Below the pieces are notes generated by a model. It saw only the letters and a list, made by a program, of their open reading frames with translations. It did no database searches and was not told the DNA's origin. A stretch of 34,706 nucleotides of DNA from Herminiimonas sp. (lineage in GTDB: Bacteria > Pseudomonadota > Gammaproteobacteria > Burkholderiales > Burkholderiaceae_D), in contig JAQGMO010000197.1 in assembly GCA_028292315.1 (NCBI GenBank), positions 1 through 34,706 of the forward strand, in the 5' to 3' direction. Shown one piece after another: positions 2,051 through 25,145 of this stretch. A program made the position numbers and the translations under genes. The stretch's first letter is position 1. Each line of letters opens with the position of its first letter.

Positions 2051-3226
<1,176 letters not shown>

Positions 3227-3236
3227 GGCGAACGGG

Positions 3237-3340
3237 CAAGCGACCGAAGCAAGCGACCGAAGCAAGCAATCGAAGCAAGCAACCGAAGCAAGCAACCGAA
3301 GCAAGCAACCGAAGCAAGCAACCGAAGCAAGCAACCGAAG
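3237..3340 (+). repeat. 13-bp tandem repeat, eight copies, behind obgE
   Basis: Eight consecutive 13-bp units of consensus CAAGCAACCGAAG run from 3237 to 3340. Units 4 to 8 are identical; units 1 and 2 read CAAGCGACCGAAG and unit 3 CAAGCAATCGAAG. A ninth decayed unit follows. Because 13 is not a multiple of 3 and the array starts just after the obgE stop, it is non-coding; long open frames across it on both strands are by-products of the repeat. Confidence 0.95.
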
Positions 3341-3348
3341 CAGGCAAT

Positions 3349-15929: not shown

Positions 15930-18851
15930 GTGCTCTCTACTCAAGAAACCGCCGTAAAATCTTCCAACGACTTTGGTGTCGCAACCTCCCAAGCCGGCAA
16001 TGCCGCTCTTTCCTCTGCGGTGAATTCATCCGCCGCGCTGGGCGACTACAGAATCATCCGCCGCAATGGCGCGGTGGTCGGGTTTGAACCTTCCAAGATT
16101 TCAATCGCGGTGACCAAGGCATTCCTGGCGGTCAATGGCGGTCAGGGCGCTGCGTCGGCACGCGTGCGCGAACTGGTCGAACAATTGACGGCCAACGTGG
16201 TGTCGGCGCTGGTGCGCCGCCAGCCGGCCGGCGGCACCTTCCATATAGAAGATATCCAGGACCAGGTCGAACTGGCGCTGATGCGTTCGGGCGAACATGA
16301 TGTGGCGCGGGCCTATGTGCTGTATCGCGCCAAGCGGATGGAAGAGCGCGCCCAGCAAAAGGCCGGCAAGCCGGATGGCGGCGTGGTGGCGCAGCTGCAC
16401 GTGATGGAAGACGGCCAGCGCCGTCCGCTCGACATGAACCAGGTGCGCGACCTGATTACCGCAGCCTGCATCGGCCTCGAAAAACATGTCGATGCCGACG
16501 CAATCCTGGCCGAGACGGTCAAGAACCTGTACGACGGCGTGCCGGTTGAAGAGCTGCACAAGTCGGCTATCCTGGCTGCGCGCGCATTGATGGAAAAGGA
16601 TCCGGCTTACAGCACGGTGACGGCGCGCCTGCTGATGCATACGATCCGCAAGGAAGTGTTCGGCCAGGAAGTGGCGCAAAAGGATGCGCAGGCGCATTAC
16701 CTGGATTACTTCCCGAAGTTCATCAAGAAGGGCATCGAAGCCGAACTGCTCGACCCGAAACTCGCGCAATTCGACCTGAAGCAGCTGGGCGAGGCGCTGG
16801 TGCCCGACCGCGACCTGCAATTCGGCTATCTCGGCCTGCAAACGCTGTACGACCGTTACTTCCTGCATATCCGCGACATCCGCATCGAGATGCCGCAGGC
16901 GTTTTACATGCGGGTGGCGATGGGGCTGGCCCTGAACGAGATCAACCGCGAAGCGCGCGCGATCGAGTTTTACAACCTGCTGTCGAGCTTCGATTTCATG
17001 AGTTCGACCCCGACCCTGTTCAATTCCGGCACGCTGCGTTCACAGTTGTCCTCGTGCTACCTGACCACGGTCGCCGACGACCTGGAAGGCATTTACGAAG
17101 CAATCAAGGAAAACGCCTTGCTGGCGAAATACGCCGGCGGCCTCGGCAATGACTGGACCCCGGTGCGCTCGCTCGGCGCCCATATCAAGGGCACCAACGG
17201 AAAATCGCAAGGCGTGGTGCCGTTCCTCAAGGTCGTCAACGATACCGCCGTCGCTGTTAACCAGGGTGGAAAACGCAAGGGCGCGGTGTGTGCCTACCTG
17301 GAAACCTGGCACATGGATATCGAGGAATTCCTCGATCTGCGCAAGAATACCGGCGACGACCGCCGCCGCACCCACGACATGAACACCGCGAACTGGATTC
17401 CCGACCTGTTCATGAAGCGCGTGATGGAAAAGGGCGAGTGGACCCTGTTTTCGCCGAGCGATGCGCCGGACCTGCACGACAAGGTCGGCCGCGCGTTCGA
17501 GGCGGCTTACCTCGGCTACGAAGCCCGGGCTGCGCGTGGCGAACTGCGCGTGTACAAGAAAGTGCAGGCGCTCGACCTGTGGCGCAAGATGCTGTCGATG
17601 CTGTTCGAAACCGGTCATCCATGGATTACCTTCAAGGATCCATGCAATATCCGGTCGCCGCAGCAACACACCGGCGTCGTCCACAGCTCGAACCTGTGCA
17701 CCGAGATCACCCTGAACACCAACGAATCCGAAATCGCGGTGTGCAACCTTGGTTCGATCAACCTGCCGGCGCACATGAAAGACGGCAAGCTGGACCAGAC
17801 CAAGCTGCAAAAGACGGTCCGCACCGCGATGCGCATGCTGGACAATGTGATCGACATCAATTATTACGCGGTCAAGAAAGCGCGCGATTCCAACCTGCGG
17901 CACCGGCCGGTCGGCCTCGGCATCATGGGCTTCCAGGACTGCCTGCACATGATGCGGGTGCCGTACGCCTCGAAAGATGCGGTCGAATTCGCCGATCGCT
18001 CGATGGAAGCGGTGTGCTATTACGCCTACTTCGCATCGACCGAACTGGCCGAAGAGCGCGGCCGCTACAATTCCTACCAGGGTTCGCTGTGGGATCGCGG
18101 TATTCTGCCGCAGGATTCGCTCAAGCTGCTGGCGGAAGAGCGCGGCGGCTATCTCGAAGTCGACAGTTCCGAAACCATGGACTGGTCGGCGTTACGCAGC
18201 CGCATCAAGCAGCACGGCATGCGTAATTCCAACTGTGTGGCGATCGCGCCGACTGCGACGATTTCCAACATCATCGGGGTTTCCGCCTGTATCGAGCCGA
18301 CTTACCAGAACCTGTATGTGAAGTCGAACCTGTCCGGCGAGTTTACGGAAATCAATGAATACCTGGTGCGCGACCTGAAGGCGCGCGGCCTGTGGGACGA
18401 AGTAATGATCTCCGACCTCAAATATTTCGACGGCAGCCTGGCCAAGATCGATCGCATTCCGCAAGACCTGCGTGAAATTTACGCGACCGCATTTGAAGTC
18501 GAGCCATCCTGGCTGGTCGAGGCGGCGTCGCGGCGCCAGAAGTGGATCGACCAGGCCCAGTCGTTGAATATTTACATGGCGGGCGCATCCGGCAAGAAGC
18601 TCGATGAAACTTACAAGCTGGCATGGCTGCGCGGTCTGAAGACGACCTATTACCTGCGTACGATCGGCGCAACGCATTCCGAAAAATCGACCACCAAGGC
18701 CGGCGCCTTGAACGCGGTGTCGGCCGACGGCGGTCTCAGCGGCGGCATGGCGGCGGCCGCGCCGGCAGCCGACTCGGTCGAGTTGTCGGGCCCGGCTTGC
18801 ATGATGCGTCCCGGCGATCCGGGATTTGAGGAATGCGAAGCCTGTCAGTAA
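15930..18851 (+). CDS. nrdA: Ribonucleoside-diphosphate reductase, alpha subunit (class Ia)
   Basis: The catalytic subunit that converts NDPs to dNDPs. At 973 residues it is about 200 longer than E. coli NrdA because the N-terminus appears to carry two ATP-cone regions: residues about 41-140 (IIRRNGAVVGFEPSKI) and a second, more diverged one at about 155-245. This matches the long Pseudomonas-type NrdA. Active-site residues are visible: C376 in QLSSCYL, N588-x-C590-x-E592 (NLCTE), and C605 in AVCNLGSINL. The tail ends in ECEACQ, the C969/C972 thiol pair that shuttles electrons from thioredoxin or glutaredoxin. The start is a GTG with AGGAGG 4 nt upstream. Regulation is probably through dATP/ATP at the cones and NrdR at the promoter. 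Confidence 0.96.
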   Translation: MLSTQETAVKSSNDFGVATSQAGNAALSSAVNSSAALGDYRIIRRNGAVVGFEPSKISIAVTKAFLAVNGGQGAASARVRELVEQLTANVVSALVRRQPAGGTFHIEDIQDQVELALMRSGEHDVARAYVLYRAKRMEERAQQKAGKPDGGVVAQLHVMEDGQRRPLDMNQVRDLITAACIGLEKHVDADAILAETVKNLYDGVPVEELHKSAILAARALMEKDPAYSTVTARLLMHTIRKEVFGQEVAQKDAQAHYLDYFPKFIKKGIEAELLDPKLAQFDLKQLGEALVPDRDLQFGYLGLQTLYDRYFLHIRDIRIEMPQAFYMRVAMGLALNEINREARAIEFYNLLSSFDFMSSTPTLFNSGTLRSQLSSCYLTTVADDLEGIYEAIKENALLAKYAGGLGNDWTPVRSLGAHIKGTNGKSQGVVPFLKVVNDTAVAVNQGGKRKGAVCAYLETWHMDIEEFLDLRKNTGDDRRRTHDMNTANWIPDLFMKRVMEKGEWTLFSPSDAPDLHDKVGRAFEAAYLGYEARAARGELRVYKKVQALDLWRKMLSMLFETGHPWITFKDPCNIRSPQQHTGVVHSSNLCTEITLNTNESEIAVCNLGSINLPAHMKDGKLDQTKLQKTVRTAMRMLDNVIDINYYAVKKARDSNLRHRPVGLGIMGFQDCLHMMRVPYASKDAVEFADRSMEAVCYYAYFASTELAEERGRYNSYQGSLWDRGILPQDSLKLLAEERGGYLEVDSSETMDWSALRSRIKQHGMRNSNCVAIAPTATISNIIGVSACIEPTYQNLYVKSNLSGEFTEINEYLVRDLKARGLWDEVMISDLKYFDGSLAKIDRIPQDLREIYATAFEVEPSWLVEAASRRQKWIDQAQSLNIYMAGASGKKLDETYKLAWLRGLKTTYYLRTIGATHSEKSTTKAGALNAVSADGGLSGGMAAAAPAADSVELSGPACMMRPGDPGFEECEACQ

Positions 18852-18991: not shown

Positions 18992-20191
18992 ATGCTCTCT
19001 TGGGATGATGAAGTAACCCCGGCTCCGGCCCCGCGCGCACCACAGGCGCCTGTGCAAATTCAGCCTCAGCTGCAGACGGCCGTCCCGCCGTCGGGCCGGG
19101 CGCAACGGGAAAACGTGGCGCTCGATCCGGCGCTGGTCGCCAAGCCCGCCGACTCGGCCGCCGACATTGCGGCACGGCGCGTGAACGCCGCCGACAAACG
19201 CATCATCAACGGCAAGACCGACGTTAATCAGCTGGTGCCTTTCAAATACAAATGGGCATGGGACAAATACCTCGCGGGTTGCGCCAACCACTGGATGCCG
19301 CAGGAAATCAACATGCAGCGAGACATCGAGCTGTGGAAAAATCCTAACGGCCTGACCGAAGACGAGCGGCGCCTGGTAAAGCGCAACCTCGGGTTTTTCG
19401 TGACCGCCGATTCGCTTGCCGCCAACAATATCGTGCTTGGCACCTACCGCCACATCACGGCGCCGGAGTGCCGCCAGTACCTGTTGCGCCAGGCATTTGA
19501 AGAAGCGATCCATACGCACGCCTATCAATATATCGTTGAGTCGCTCGGCCTGGACGAAGGCGAAGTGTTCAATGCCTACCACGAGGTGGCATCGATCCGC
19601 GACAAGGATGAATTCCTGATTCCGTTCATCGACACGCTGACCGATCCGTCGTTCACCACCGGCACGACCGAGAACGATCAGACGTTGCTCAAATCGTTGA
19701 TCGTGTTTGCGTGCCTGATGGAAGGGCTGTTTTTCTATGTCGGCTTTACGCAAATACTTGCGCTTGGCCGGCAAAACAAAATGATGGGCGCTGCCGAGCA
19801 GTATCAATACATCCTGCGCGATGAGTCGATGCACTGCAACTTCGGAATCGATTTGATCAACACGATCAAGATGGAGAATCCGCACCTGTGGACGCCTGAA
19901 TTTCGCGACGAGATTAAATCGTTGTTTTTACGCGCGGTAGAGTTGGAATATCGCTACGCAGAGGATACAATGCCGCGTGGTGTGCTAGGTTTAAATGCGC
20001 CTATGTTCAAAGGCTACTTGCGATTCATCGCTAACCGCCGGGCACAACAGATTGGACTGGACCCGATGTTCGCGCAGGAAGAAAATCCATTTCCGTGGAT
20101 GAGCGAAATGATCGATCTGAAAAAAGAGCGAAACTTTTTTGAGACACGCGTCATCGAATATCAAACTGGTGGCGCATTGAACTGGGAGTGA
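18992..20191 (+). CDS. nrdB: Ribonucleoside-diphosphate reductase, beta subunit (class Ia)
   Basis: The di-iron, tyrosyl-radical subunit that partners NrdA. The 399 residues comprise a Pro/Ala/Gln-rich N-terminal extension of about 70 residues and the ferritin-like core. The first half of the metal site includes E171 and H174 with the radical tyrosine at Y178 in [12 protein letters not shown], the E-x2-H-x3-Y spacing of E. coli NrdB. The second half is [11 protein letters not shown]. Having the tyrosine indicates a class Ia-type enzyme rather than the Tyr-lacking class Ic. It follows nrdA by 140 nt with AAAAGGAATAAGCA before the ATG as ribosome binding site. No terminator follows directly; the next hairpins are nearly 400 nt downstream. 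Confidence 0.95.
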
Positions 20192-20227
20192 TTACCAGGA
20201 TGCGCAAAATCGGCGCGTGAATAAAAG

Positions 20228-20255
20228 TTGAACATGCGTCGAAATAAACTAGAAT
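20228..20255 (+). promoter_or_regulatory. Putative sigma70 promoter downstream of nrdB
   Basis: TTGAAC at 20228-20233, a 16-nt spacer, and TAGAAT at 20250-20255 make a good sigma70 match starting 37 nt after the nrdB stop. It points into a region without a plausible protein gene but with two terminators, so it is a candidate start for a small RNA beginning near 20262. Confidence 0.6.
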
Positions 20256-20308
20256 GAAATTTCGCTGCAGTCTGCGGAATGTCTGAAGCGAGAGATCTGG
20301 CTGTTTGA

Positions 20309-20491
20309 GAACTCGGGTTGGAAGCTCAGTTTGAGATCACGGTTTTAGATCAAGGTTTGAGAGCACAAGTTGAGATCGCAGATTCAGATCGAAGGTTTGG
20401 ATCGAAATTCAAGATCGCGGTTTTAGATCGAGAGTCTGAGATCATGCAGTCCGGGATAGACAGTCGATTCAGATGAACGATTCAGCTGAAC
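20309..20491 (+). repeat. Degenerate 13-bp tandem array, GATC-led
   Basis: About fourteen units of 13 bp, eight beginning with GATC at 20335, 20348, 20374, 20387, 20400, 20413, 20426 and 20440. The phase is held except for one 14-bp unit at 20426. Typical units are GATCACGGTTTTA, GATCAAGGTTTGA and GATCGCGGTTTTA; a GAGC replaces GATC at 20361, and the last two units are GATTCAGATGAAC and GATTCAGCTGAAC. The strict phasing despite divergence suggests an old tandem array. Function unknown. Confidence 0.85.
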
Positions 20492-20569
20492 GACGAAAGG
20501 CTGCAAAGACAGAAAGGCTATAACCAAATTTAATGGACAGTAGAAGACCTAATCAATCTTGTCTGCAAT

Positions 20570-20608
20570 CGCCGCTGCGCCCGATCCTGTCGGGCAAGGC
20601 GGCGTTTT
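20570..20608 (+). terminator. Two-tier hairpin terminator
   Basis: CGCCGC (20570-20575) pairs with GCGGCG (20599-20604), and inside it CCCGA (20580-20584) pairs with TCGGG (20590-20594). TTTT follows directly. It is the first plausible end for nrdAB or the candidate RNA. Confidence 0.65.
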
Positions 20609-20647
20609 CTTCGAAAAATGGTTTTTCTTTTCTGAAACACGATTCCG

Positions 20648-20675
20648 ACGCCGGCTTTGTTGCCGGCGTTTTTTT
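20648..20675 (+). terminator. Strong intrinsic terminator
   Basis: ACGCCGGC (20648-20655) and GCCGGCGT (20662-20669) form a perfect 8-bp stem with loop TTTGTT, followed by seven T residues. It is a textbook terminator on the plus strand and lies about 40 nt after the preceding hairpin. Confidence 0.9.
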
Positions 20676-20715
20676 GGGTTGCCGCCGCTTGCGATGCGGG
20701 CAGGCGCAATCCATC

Positions 20716-20914
20716 AGAGCGGTCTGCAAGGGCGTGGTCGCGAGCCAGGGCCAGGATGGTAAGCAAAACCGGCCACATCGGTACGGCGTGCTTCACCTGT
20801 CCGGGATTGGCCCGTACGGAGACAAGGTCGGGCCAAGAAGCGGAAGCGTACGTCGGTACGCTGAGCATCACCGGTCCGAGATTGGCCCGTACAGGCGCCC
20901 CGCCAACCGCTCTA
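20716..20914. repeat. Inverted-repeat-bounded intergenic element, copy B
   Basis: AGAGCGGT at 20716-20723 and ACCGCTCT at 20906-20913 bound this copy. Positions 20814-20914 align with the reverse complement of copy A (4580-4679) at about 80% by hand. Unlike A, it holds an internal duplication: 20780-20817 and 20855-20892 match at 32 of 38 positions, 75 bp apart, which explains the extra length. Open frames through it are not supported by start signals and differ between copies, so it appears non-coding. Confidence 0.78.
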
Positions 20915-21011
20915 TGGCTGAAGTGCTGCATAGTCGAGGAGATGCAGCAGTTCAGCTGGTGCCGAATTCATTAGCGCAAACAGAAGCATGCTTGCGCCGA
21001 TGAATAATCCG

Positions 21012-21035
21012 CCTGACTCATCGCGATGAGGCAGG
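21012..21035. promoter_or_regulatory. Palindrome upstream of the H1-like gene
   Basis: The perfect 14-bp palindrome CTCATCGCGATGAG is extended by CCTG/CAGG arms after one mismatch, giving a 24-bp dyad 50 nt before the H1-like start. There is no following T-run. It could be an operator or a leader hairpin. The rest of 20915-21084 shows nothing else I can name. Confidence 0.4.
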
Positions 21036-21084
21036 GGGGTTTCCATCTTGTAGCTTGATTTTCCATCACGTGAAGGAGAAACAA

Positions 21085-23792: not shown

Positions 23793-25145
23793 TCAGGGAT
23801 AAAAAAGATAGACCCGGTAACCCGTGGCTTTTAATTGGGACAGGGTAAACACCACTCTGACCGGCTGTTCCGAATTCGGCGGCAAGCCGCGGGCGGAATC
23901 CTGCGTCTTCGACAGGTATTCGCGCGGCGTGAATACGCGTCGCACCACCGGCTTTTCCTCTGCATCATTCAGGGTCAATTCGATGTTCGGCCATGCCTGG
24001 CTGACACTGCTGCGGTTGCGTAACAGGGTCGCCAGCGCAAAGTTGTTCTGGCTATCAGCCAGCGCCTGCAGCTCACTTGATTCAACCGACACTGAATCGA
24101 TCTGCGCCGGCAGTCCCACCTGACAGCCGATCAGTCCGCACAGCTGCTCCAGGGCCAGCCTGGTCTGCGGCAGGCGGGCTGCGATCTGGTCGCGGAAATG
24201 ATAAGTCCCCTGTGCCAGCAAGGCCGCCAGCAGAAAACCGGAACCGACGCTCATCGCCATGCGCAGCATCCGGCCGAATCGCTGTTGCCGCCGGGCGCGC
24301 AAGACGAATTCCGGCTCGGGGGAATCGAATTCATCAAGGAAGTCTTCTTCCTCGTCCGGGCGCGGCTTCCTTGTGCCGCGCCACGGTTTGCTTTGCAAGT
24401 CCTCGATCGCGCGGCTCAGGTCGTCAGCGGAGCCGCCGGCCTCCTCGGCGGCCGGCCGGCCTGCGGCATGGCGGGTTTCGTAGTCGGGGGAAAAATCCAT
24501 CAATGTCATGCGCAGCAATGGATCGCTGGCTGCATTGTCTGGCACGGTATGGATCGGAGCGCTTTCGAGAGCGGTGCGCCACACGGCTGGCTGGGTCCGT
24601 AGCGCAGCGGCCGCTTCCGGCTGCGAGGTTCGCGCGCCTGAATCGCTCGCGGAAGGCGGGGGCGTTTCGGCAGAAGATGATGCCGCGGCAGACGCCGATG
24701 CGTCGGAAGAGGGACTGGCGTCGGACGAGGGGCTTGCTTCAGACGACGGGCTTGCTTCGGACCACGGGCTTGCTTCAGAAGACGGACTTGCTTCGGAGGG
24801 CGGACCTGCTTCGGAGGACAGACTTGCTTCAGCGGGCGGGCTTACTTCAGCAGACGGACCTGCTTCATAAAATGGACTTGCTTCAGAGGACCGCGGCGCA
24901 TCGCCTCCAGCCGGTACGTCGGCAGACGGTTGCCCCGATTGCGGCGGGGACGACGCCGGCAAACCCGGCGCCGGCGCCGGTGCTGCTTCCGGCTGCGCTG
25001 GTCCGCTTGGCGGCAACAGGTGTTCAACGCCGTTAAAAATTTCCTTGCAGGCGCCGCAGCGCACTAGTCCGGCGCGCAGCTTCAGTTGATCATGCGCGAC
25101 GCGGAAGGTCGTATGGCAATGCGGGCAGCGGGTCGCAAGCGCCAT
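23793..25145 (-). CDS. Zinc-ribbon and DUF3426 domain protein with hexapeptide repeats
   Basis: A 450-residue protein of unknown function, typically found after prmA in Burkholderiales. The N-terminus is an MJ0042-type zinc ribbon with C7-x2-C10 and C30-x2-C33. Next is a Pro/Ser/Ala-rich linker (about 46-170) with some thirteen six-residue repeats of SSEASP type at 86-163. A single transmembrane helix (about 294-313, MAMSVGSGFLLAALL) is followed by the C-terminal DUF3426 domain, presumably periplasmic. The linker would sit in the cytoplasm between zinc ribbon and membrane. It starts 5 nt after the prmA stop, so translation is probably coupled. Confidence 0.85.
   Translation of the reverse strand: MALATRCPHCHTTFRVAHDQLKLRAGLVRCGACKEIFNGVEHLLPPSGPAQPEAAPAPAPGLPASSPPQSGQPSADVPAGGDAPRSSEASPFYEAGPSAEVSPPAEASLSSEAGPPSEASPSSEASPWSEASPSSEASPSSDASPSSDASASAAASSSAETPPPSASDSGARTSQPEAAAALRTQPAVWRTALESAPIHTVPDNAASDPLLRMTLMDFSPDYETRHAAGRPAAEEAGGSADDLSRAIEDLQSKPWRGTRKPRPDEEEDFLDEFDSPEPEFVLRARRQQRFGRMLRMAMSVGSGFLLAALLAQGTYHFRDQIAARLPQTRLALEQLCGLIGCQVGLPAQIDSVSVESSELQALADSQNNFALATLLRNRSSVSQAWPNIELTLNDAEEKPVVRRVFTPREYLSKTQDSARGLPPNSEQPVRVVFTLSQLKATGYRVYLFYP
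24657..24890 (-). repeat. In-frame 18-bp repeats in the DUF3426 gene
   Basis: The coding stretch holds about thirteen tandem 18-bp units encoding SSEASP-like hexapeptides, with central units nearly identical (SSEASP, WSEASP, SSEASP, SSDASP). The frame is preserved across units, so selection at protein level tolerates copy-number change here. Confidence 0.85.

Follow-up and report, generated by a model that had tools for sequence, protein, structure and literature searches.

A candidate translation-dependent transcription attenuator in the conserved leader of an HC2-type histone gene

In a window of 34,706 nucleotides from Herminiimonas sp. (contig JAQGMO010000197.1), the nrdAB genes are followed by an HC2-type histone H1-like gene, and we consider positions 20488-21084, with somewhat better than even confidence, to be the 5' leader of this gene, conserved across Burkholderiales and acting as a translation-dependent transcription attenuator. 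The leader combines a short open reading frame (uORF), two terminator-type hairpins (II and III) and a further RNA element, here called element B, and it probably makes HC2 expression depend on translation. The structures, the frame, the placement of its stop and the link to the HC2 gene were established by comparison among relatives; attenuation and regulation are what we infer from them.

Alignment with five related genomes divided the nrdB-HC2 interval into four blocks. Identity was 80-88% over the block that holds the terminators (20488-20680) and 88-97% over 20912-21084, and blocks 20192-20487 and 20681-20911 gave chance-length matches only. When 20192-20690 was used as query against 60 related genomes, every match began at query position 297 or later. 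The HC2 gene scored 46 bits against Pfam HC2, above the gathering score of 40, and 66.5 bits against NCBIfam NF038053, below that model's cut-off of 80. A sequence-only reading of positions 20228-20675, made before this analysis, mentioned neither this gene nor element B (20916-21042). The two 43-nt copies of the repeat in the non-conserved spacer span 20775-20892. In loci L128-L176 the downstream HC2-type protein ranged from about 90 to >240 aa through Lys/Ala-rich repeats, and its C-terminal end was usually NPAAAWPFPTG.

Table 1 Features of the nrdAB-HC2 locus, with positions in the window
Feature	Position	Strand	Basis and remarks
nrdA, ribonucleotide reductase large chain	15930-18851	+	ORF; Pfam PF02867 (7e-191), ATP-cone
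nrdB, ribonucleotide reductase small chain (stop at 20191)	18992-20191	+	ORF; Pfam PF00268 (1.6e-89)
Promoter-like site TTGAAC-16-TAGAAT	20228-20255	+	Promoter scan; private to this genome
Degenerate 13-bp array	20327-20493	+	TRF; private to this genome
SD-like AGAAAGG of uORF	20511-20517	+	Purine tract conserved in alignment; about 15 nt before ATG
uORF, 156 codons here	20533-21003	+	Conserved over about codons 1-30 (20533-20622), MDSRRPNQSCLQSPLRPILSGKAAFSSKN
Hairpin II, intrinsic terminator-like, then TTTTCTTC	20570-20604	+	RNAalifold compensatory pairs; fold; lies within uORF
U-rich linker between hairpins II and III	20605-20646	+	Complementary to uORF initiation region in many relatives
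Hairpin III, intrinsic terminator with T7	20647-20675	+	Terminator scan; RNAalifold; stem 20647-20670
Non-conserved spacer, hairpin III to element B	20676-20915	+	84% direct repeat inside (43 nt, spacing 75)
Element B, first hairpin (GGCTGAAGTGCTGCAT...ATGCAGCAGTTCAGC)	20916-20956	+	Fold; conserved in Oxalobacteraceae
Element B core: ATTCAT-UA-GCGCAA..TTGCGC-CG-ATGAAT helix and AATCCGCC..GGGGGGTT helix	20960-21042	+	Alignment, covariance model, pair counts
Shine-Dalgarno GAAGGAG of HC2 gene	21072-21078	+	Sequence; conserved in relatives
HC2-type histone H1-like gene, 113 aa	21085-21426	+	Pfam PF07382 (8.5e-12)

The two hairpin terminators that the sequence-only reading had placed at the end of its region were both borne out, with their T-runs, as conserved structures. 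RNAalifold, applied to 29 Oxalobacteraceae sequences, recovered exactly hairpins II and III (20 pairs), with compensatory, both-side changes in 13 of these pairs. The terminator part of the window also folded better than its shuffles (z = -4.34). A conserved terminator hairpin with a U-tract therefore lies 5' of the putatively regulated gene, as in known attenuators; in Burkholderia the stem matching hairpin II has no clear U-tract behind it, which makes it a weaker terminator candidate there. Several relatives have a linker complementary to the uORF initiation region, and in the window the linker can pair with the SD-like AGAAAGG. A duplex test of this pairing in 17 sequences gave a combined p = 2e-6, with shuffles that do not preserve dinucleotides and relatives that are not independent, and the strongest pairing, in leader L008, reached -29.4 kcal/mol.

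That no frame with a ribosome binding site lay between the promoter and the terminators, as first reported from the sequence, proved incorrect: a conserved ORF starts at ATG 20533 behind AGAAAGG, and an ORF beginning M[DN]S or similar was present at the counterpart of this ATG in every relative aligned. Among 28 sequences, codons 1-30 of the uORF contained no stops, compared with 21 and 25 in the remaining two frames; this count omits L019, L023 and L037, of which L023 and L037 have a broken frame. Neither the absence of stops nor the observed amino-acid similarity (z = 3.1) was matched by any of 1000 column shuffles of 18 non-redundant sequences, a test that does not model the tree and treats relatives that are not independent; for the segment before hairpin II by itself, 4 and 1 of 1000 shuffles did so. 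Indels within the uORF were of 3, 6 or 12 nt, with the sole exception of a frame-breaking 1-nt deletion in L037; L023 has acquired an early stop and has lost hairpin III. A second set of leaders, retrieved through element B rather than through the uORF and from genomes outside the first alignment, gave the same result, the frame being kept, with in-frame inserts, in 19/19 newly fetched Oxalobacteraceae nrdB-type leaders (L197-L214 and L216). L196 was not counted in this set because it comes from genome G032, already used as L015, and no counterpart of the uORF start was found in L215.

Third codon positions of the uORF showed no clear excess of variability over the other positions. The SD-like site in Oxalobacteraceae is weak and unusually distant from the start (about 15 nt), which counts against attenuation by uORF translation. 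An SD-like GGAG was seen 12-18 nt from the uORF start in L022, L025, L029, L031, L088 and the Burkholderia loci, and in two of these, L025 and L029, the GGAG could be brought closer to the start by a small intervening GCGAA/TTCGC hairpin. No repeated codon run was common to the leader peptides when nrdB-type and Massilia-type peptides were compared, so that an amino-acid sensor of the trp/his attenuator type was rejected.

The carboxy end of the uORF is not conserved, and in nrdB-type leaders its length ranges from 31 to 156 codons. In 44 of 45 such leaders, nevertheless, the stop is placed at most 16 nt ahead of the hairpin III base, within the loop or U-tract of that hairpin, or farther downstream, whereas the first stop in the other two frames is so placed in only 8/45 and 3/45; the exception, L023, is the leader that has lost hairpin III, and four leaders in which the script detected no hairpin III were left out of the count. 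This placement implies that a ribosome finishing the uORF would pass hairpin II and cover or pass the 5' arm of hairpin III. Massilia, Duganella, Janthinobacterium and their relatives have different uORF sequences (MHKTTPF..RLA, MLKDHTTTAKPLS, MCLNFCKRQSRTA and others). The Massilia-type uORF is 9-15 codons long, mostly 13, and stops inside the first hairpin; despite differing peptides, 17 of the 20 scored leaders have their stop 10-11 nt into the 5' arm of hairpin II, the exceptions being -3, +16 and one read-through. Janthinobacterium leaders, outside these 20, carry a 23-codon ORF running through the hairpin. In nrdB-type and Massilia-type leaders alike, the uORF thus generally extends up to or into an intrinsic terminator. 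An ORF that has an AGGAG site covers the whole leader in Burkholderia, Trinickia, Polynucleobacter and basal lineages, where it mostly ends 26-59 nt before the HC2 start codon. Judged from these alignments, it is the position of the uORF relative to the RNA that is preserved across lineages and not the peptide.

The conserved frame could also denote a functional small protein (about 30 to 130 aa) whose ORF shares a transcript with nrdAB and the HC2 gene, with the hairpins being ordinary terminators or overlapping it by chance. The peptide has a M[DNHQ]S start and an S-G-x-A-A-F core, its indels and amino-acid similarity would fit selection on a protein, and in Burkholderia the leader ORF encodes 105-110 aa behind a good Shine-Dalgarno site. 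Lengths and carboxy ends, however, differ wholly (9 to 156 codons) while the position of the stop relative to the hairpins is kept, Massilia-type peptides have no evident sequence likeness, and no match was found in Pfam or NCBIfam; we therefore regard a small protein as unlikely.

A free-standing, trans-acting sRNA running from the promoter-like site at 20228 to the terminators, with the ORF incidental, appears more improbable still. The TTGAAC-16-TAGAAT sequence exists and is followed by two real terminators, and in Massilia-type genomes a promoter-like box plus terminator could yield a short RNA of roughly 150 nt. The description of this site as a good sigma70 promoter needs qualifying: a scan of 3 kb found 2 sites compared with 1.4 +/- 1.2 in shuffles, a chance-level match. 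A matrix scan of the nrdB-uORF spacer gave p = 0.04 for this genome by itself, and only 3/30 relatives reached p <= 0.05; the median over these 30 was p = 0.55, so the spacers have no promoter in common. Conservation in relatives, one of the checks proposed with the sequence-only reading, came out for the terminators and against the promoter, which had no counterpart in the 60 related genomes. Against an independent sRNA stand also the conserved reading frame, the tie of the unit to the HC2 gene and the restriction of both promoter and array to this genome. An Rfam search of the region returned nothing near threshold. The main texts searched, among them papers on Burkholderia and Herbaspirillum, yielded no sRNA adjacent to nrdB, although supplementary tables could hold an unlabelled entry; identity with B. 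cenocepacia ncS06 or B. thailandensis BTH_s1 was rejected as those sit between other, convergent genes. Of the proposed non-coding RNA, a functional RNA element at this site stands; the unit of 350-415 nt, with its private promoter and array, does not.

An HC2-like ORF was found 50-105 nt 3' of element B in 43 of 49 inspected loci, most of the other six being cut by contig ends or missed by the script. The unit of uORF, hairpins and element B usually has nrdB upstream of it. In three Massilia-type loci (L159, L164 and L174), a promoter-like box, uORF, hairpin II and element B precede the HC2 gene with no adjoining nrdB; in genome G017 nrdB lies about 3.7 kb from the unit, and in Janthinobacterium nrdB carries its own terminator ahead of it. 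The nrdB-free Massilia-type units and the separate nrdB terminator in Janthinobacterium identify the unit as a leader of the HC2 gene, and on this comparison it is by ancestry that it adjoins nrdAB. The same two arrangements, together with a uORF that is open through the hairpins and would weaken a plain terminator, and a gap from hairpin III to element B of only about 50 nt with no obvious promoter in close relatives, make it very unlikely that the hairpins, although strong, in tandem and directly 3' of nrdB in most genomes, belong to a structured nrdAB 3' UTR (as had also been suggested) and end nrdAB transcription, with element B as a separate HC2 leader under its own promoter. A promoter-like box (GGTTGCGCAYYRAYAAGGTTTTCGTGTACTTTACG) is conserved about 90-105 nt 5' of the uORF in most Massilia-type leaders; leaders with the box are L177-L190, L192-L195, L159, L027, L052, L054 and L061, and it matches the sigma-70 -35 hexamer poorly at standard spacing.

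Element B, directly 5' of the HC2 gene, is more conserved than the terminator block. In the window it folded better than shuffles (z = -3.62) and matched its covariance model with E 3.1e-17. The core, aligned in 38 sequences over several families, comprises 22 pairs, 95.6% of which were formed, with both-side changes in 10; all measures lay above 500 shuffles and slid controls. In helix 1, 97% of cells were paired and covariation beat all 500 shuffles. With the covariance model, element B was detected as one copy per genome: within the family in 266 of 294 genomes, representing 38 of 44 genera, and outside it in 26 genomes from a 300-genome sample of the order. Being single-copy in each listed genome with a match, it was rejected as a member of a multi-gene regulon. 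An explanation by coding alone was likewise rejected, as element B is in the uORF frame in Burkholderia and in another frame in this window, which points to RNA structure as the shared constraint. Gathering and E-value scans of element B against Rfam found nothing near threshold. By these comparisons, element B is a previously undescribed and widespread conserved leader element without an Rfam entry. Its probable target is the HC2 message once read-through has occurred, and that it is bound by the HC2 protein itself is a guess.

We propose that transcription in this genome would arrive by read-through from nrdAB or start from the private promoter at 20228. Ribosomes trailing RNA polymerase through the uORF would block hairpins II and III and allow transcription to reach the HC2 gene; if uORF translation failed or lagged, the hairpins would form and transcription would terminate, and a short attenuated RNA with its 3' end at one hairpin or the other would be expected as a by-product. 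Once translation had failed, pairing of the linker with the uORF initiation region would keep the uORF off. Following read-through, element B may influence how well the HC2 message is translated or how stable it is, possibly through protein binding. Almost complete repression has been found for a terminator placed a few bp after a translated gene, and terminators within a coding region's first 100 bp can work efficiently (PMC4824070). The latter weakens the case for hairpin II and argues against the simple model, in that hairpin II may have an early role and hairpin III a later one.

In E. coli pyrE, translation of a leader ORF opposes an intrinsic terminator, the same principle as the one proposed here. 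The HC2 leader also resembles E. coli pyrBI, where ribosomes translate the leader ORF as far as an intrinsic terminator or into it, and coupled translation of the leader peptide is required to prevent hairpin formation and termination (PMC5021804). HC2 leaders whose uORF stops 8-16 nt before hairpin III resemble pyrE, and those with ORFs through the hairpin resemble pyrBI. Unlike in both systems, the gene downstream encodes an HC2 histone and no pyrimidine gene is present, and the leader often has two tandem terminators plus the conserved element B. The best reading of these likenesses is that the leader is a variant of translation-coupled, pyrBI/pyrE-type attenuation with an HC2 histone gene as its putative target. 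The DUF1127 uORF attenuator of Sinorhizobium meliloti, a proposed monitor of ribosome availability, likewise depends on uORF translation and has a ribosome binding site that can pair within the leader; there, however, uORF translation lowers expression of the downstream gene (PMC12218461), whereas in the HC2 leader it would raise it. Salmonella mgtCBR shares a long leader, short ORFs and tandem attenuation but has two ORFs, compared with one in the HC2 leader, and different structures and downstream genes (PMC3641672). Burkholderia cenocepacia ncS18 and ncS33 are 5' UTRs that also give short RNAs by attenuation or processing; they belong to other loci, and we found no mention of the nrdB-HC2 leader in that study's main text (PMC5688073).

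If the proposal is true, a large group of soil, plant and clinical bacteria has a conserved attenuator that makes production of a chromatin-condensing protein follow the state of translation. PHB granules of Herbaspirillum have been reported to carry HC2 homologues (PMC3783465), and in Burkholderia cenocepacia an HC2 homologue has been described as partner of a DNA-mimic regulator (PMC9060813); we found nothing in the literature on control of the HC2 gene, and none of the main texts searched describes the nrdB-HC2 leader. A bolder reading, which we offer tentatively and hold as possible rather than probable, is that two undescribed cis-regulatory RNAs act in series on a bacterial histone gene: a translation-gated tandem attenuator, in which the stop is fixed and the peptide free, and then element B as a protein- or ligand-binding element, so that nucleoid-protein synthesis would be tied to translation capacity beside ribonucleotide reductase. 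The leader alignment would also provide a natural series of uORFs bearing on the stop-to-terminator distance needed for silencing.

The 13-bp array that the sequence-only reading took as the body of its RNA is real. TRF detected 8.9 copies with 67% matches in the main array (20327-20443) and a further 2.2 copies at 20465-20493. It sits in an extra stretch of about 210 nt relative to the nearest relatives: the distance from the nrdB stop to the conserved ORF start is 341 nt here compared with 112-130 nt in those genomes, which marks the stretch as an addition in this lineage. Folding of the array RNA was not unusual (z = -1.46, many shuffles folding as well) and, with no conservation either, the array was rejected as a functional body. 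Within it, positions 20308-20460 contain 8 GATC sites in 153 bases, compared with about 0.6 expected randomly. Another 13-bp tandem array, at 3236-3347, is much cleaner (GCAAGCAACCGAA; 8.6 copies, 95% matches); it directly follows an Obg-like GTPase ORF (2117-3226), and its consensus is unrelated to that of the array at 20327. Repeats of 36/54 bp (TGCTTCAGAAGACGGACTTGCT...) were also seen at 24699-24891, within ORF-rich sequence.
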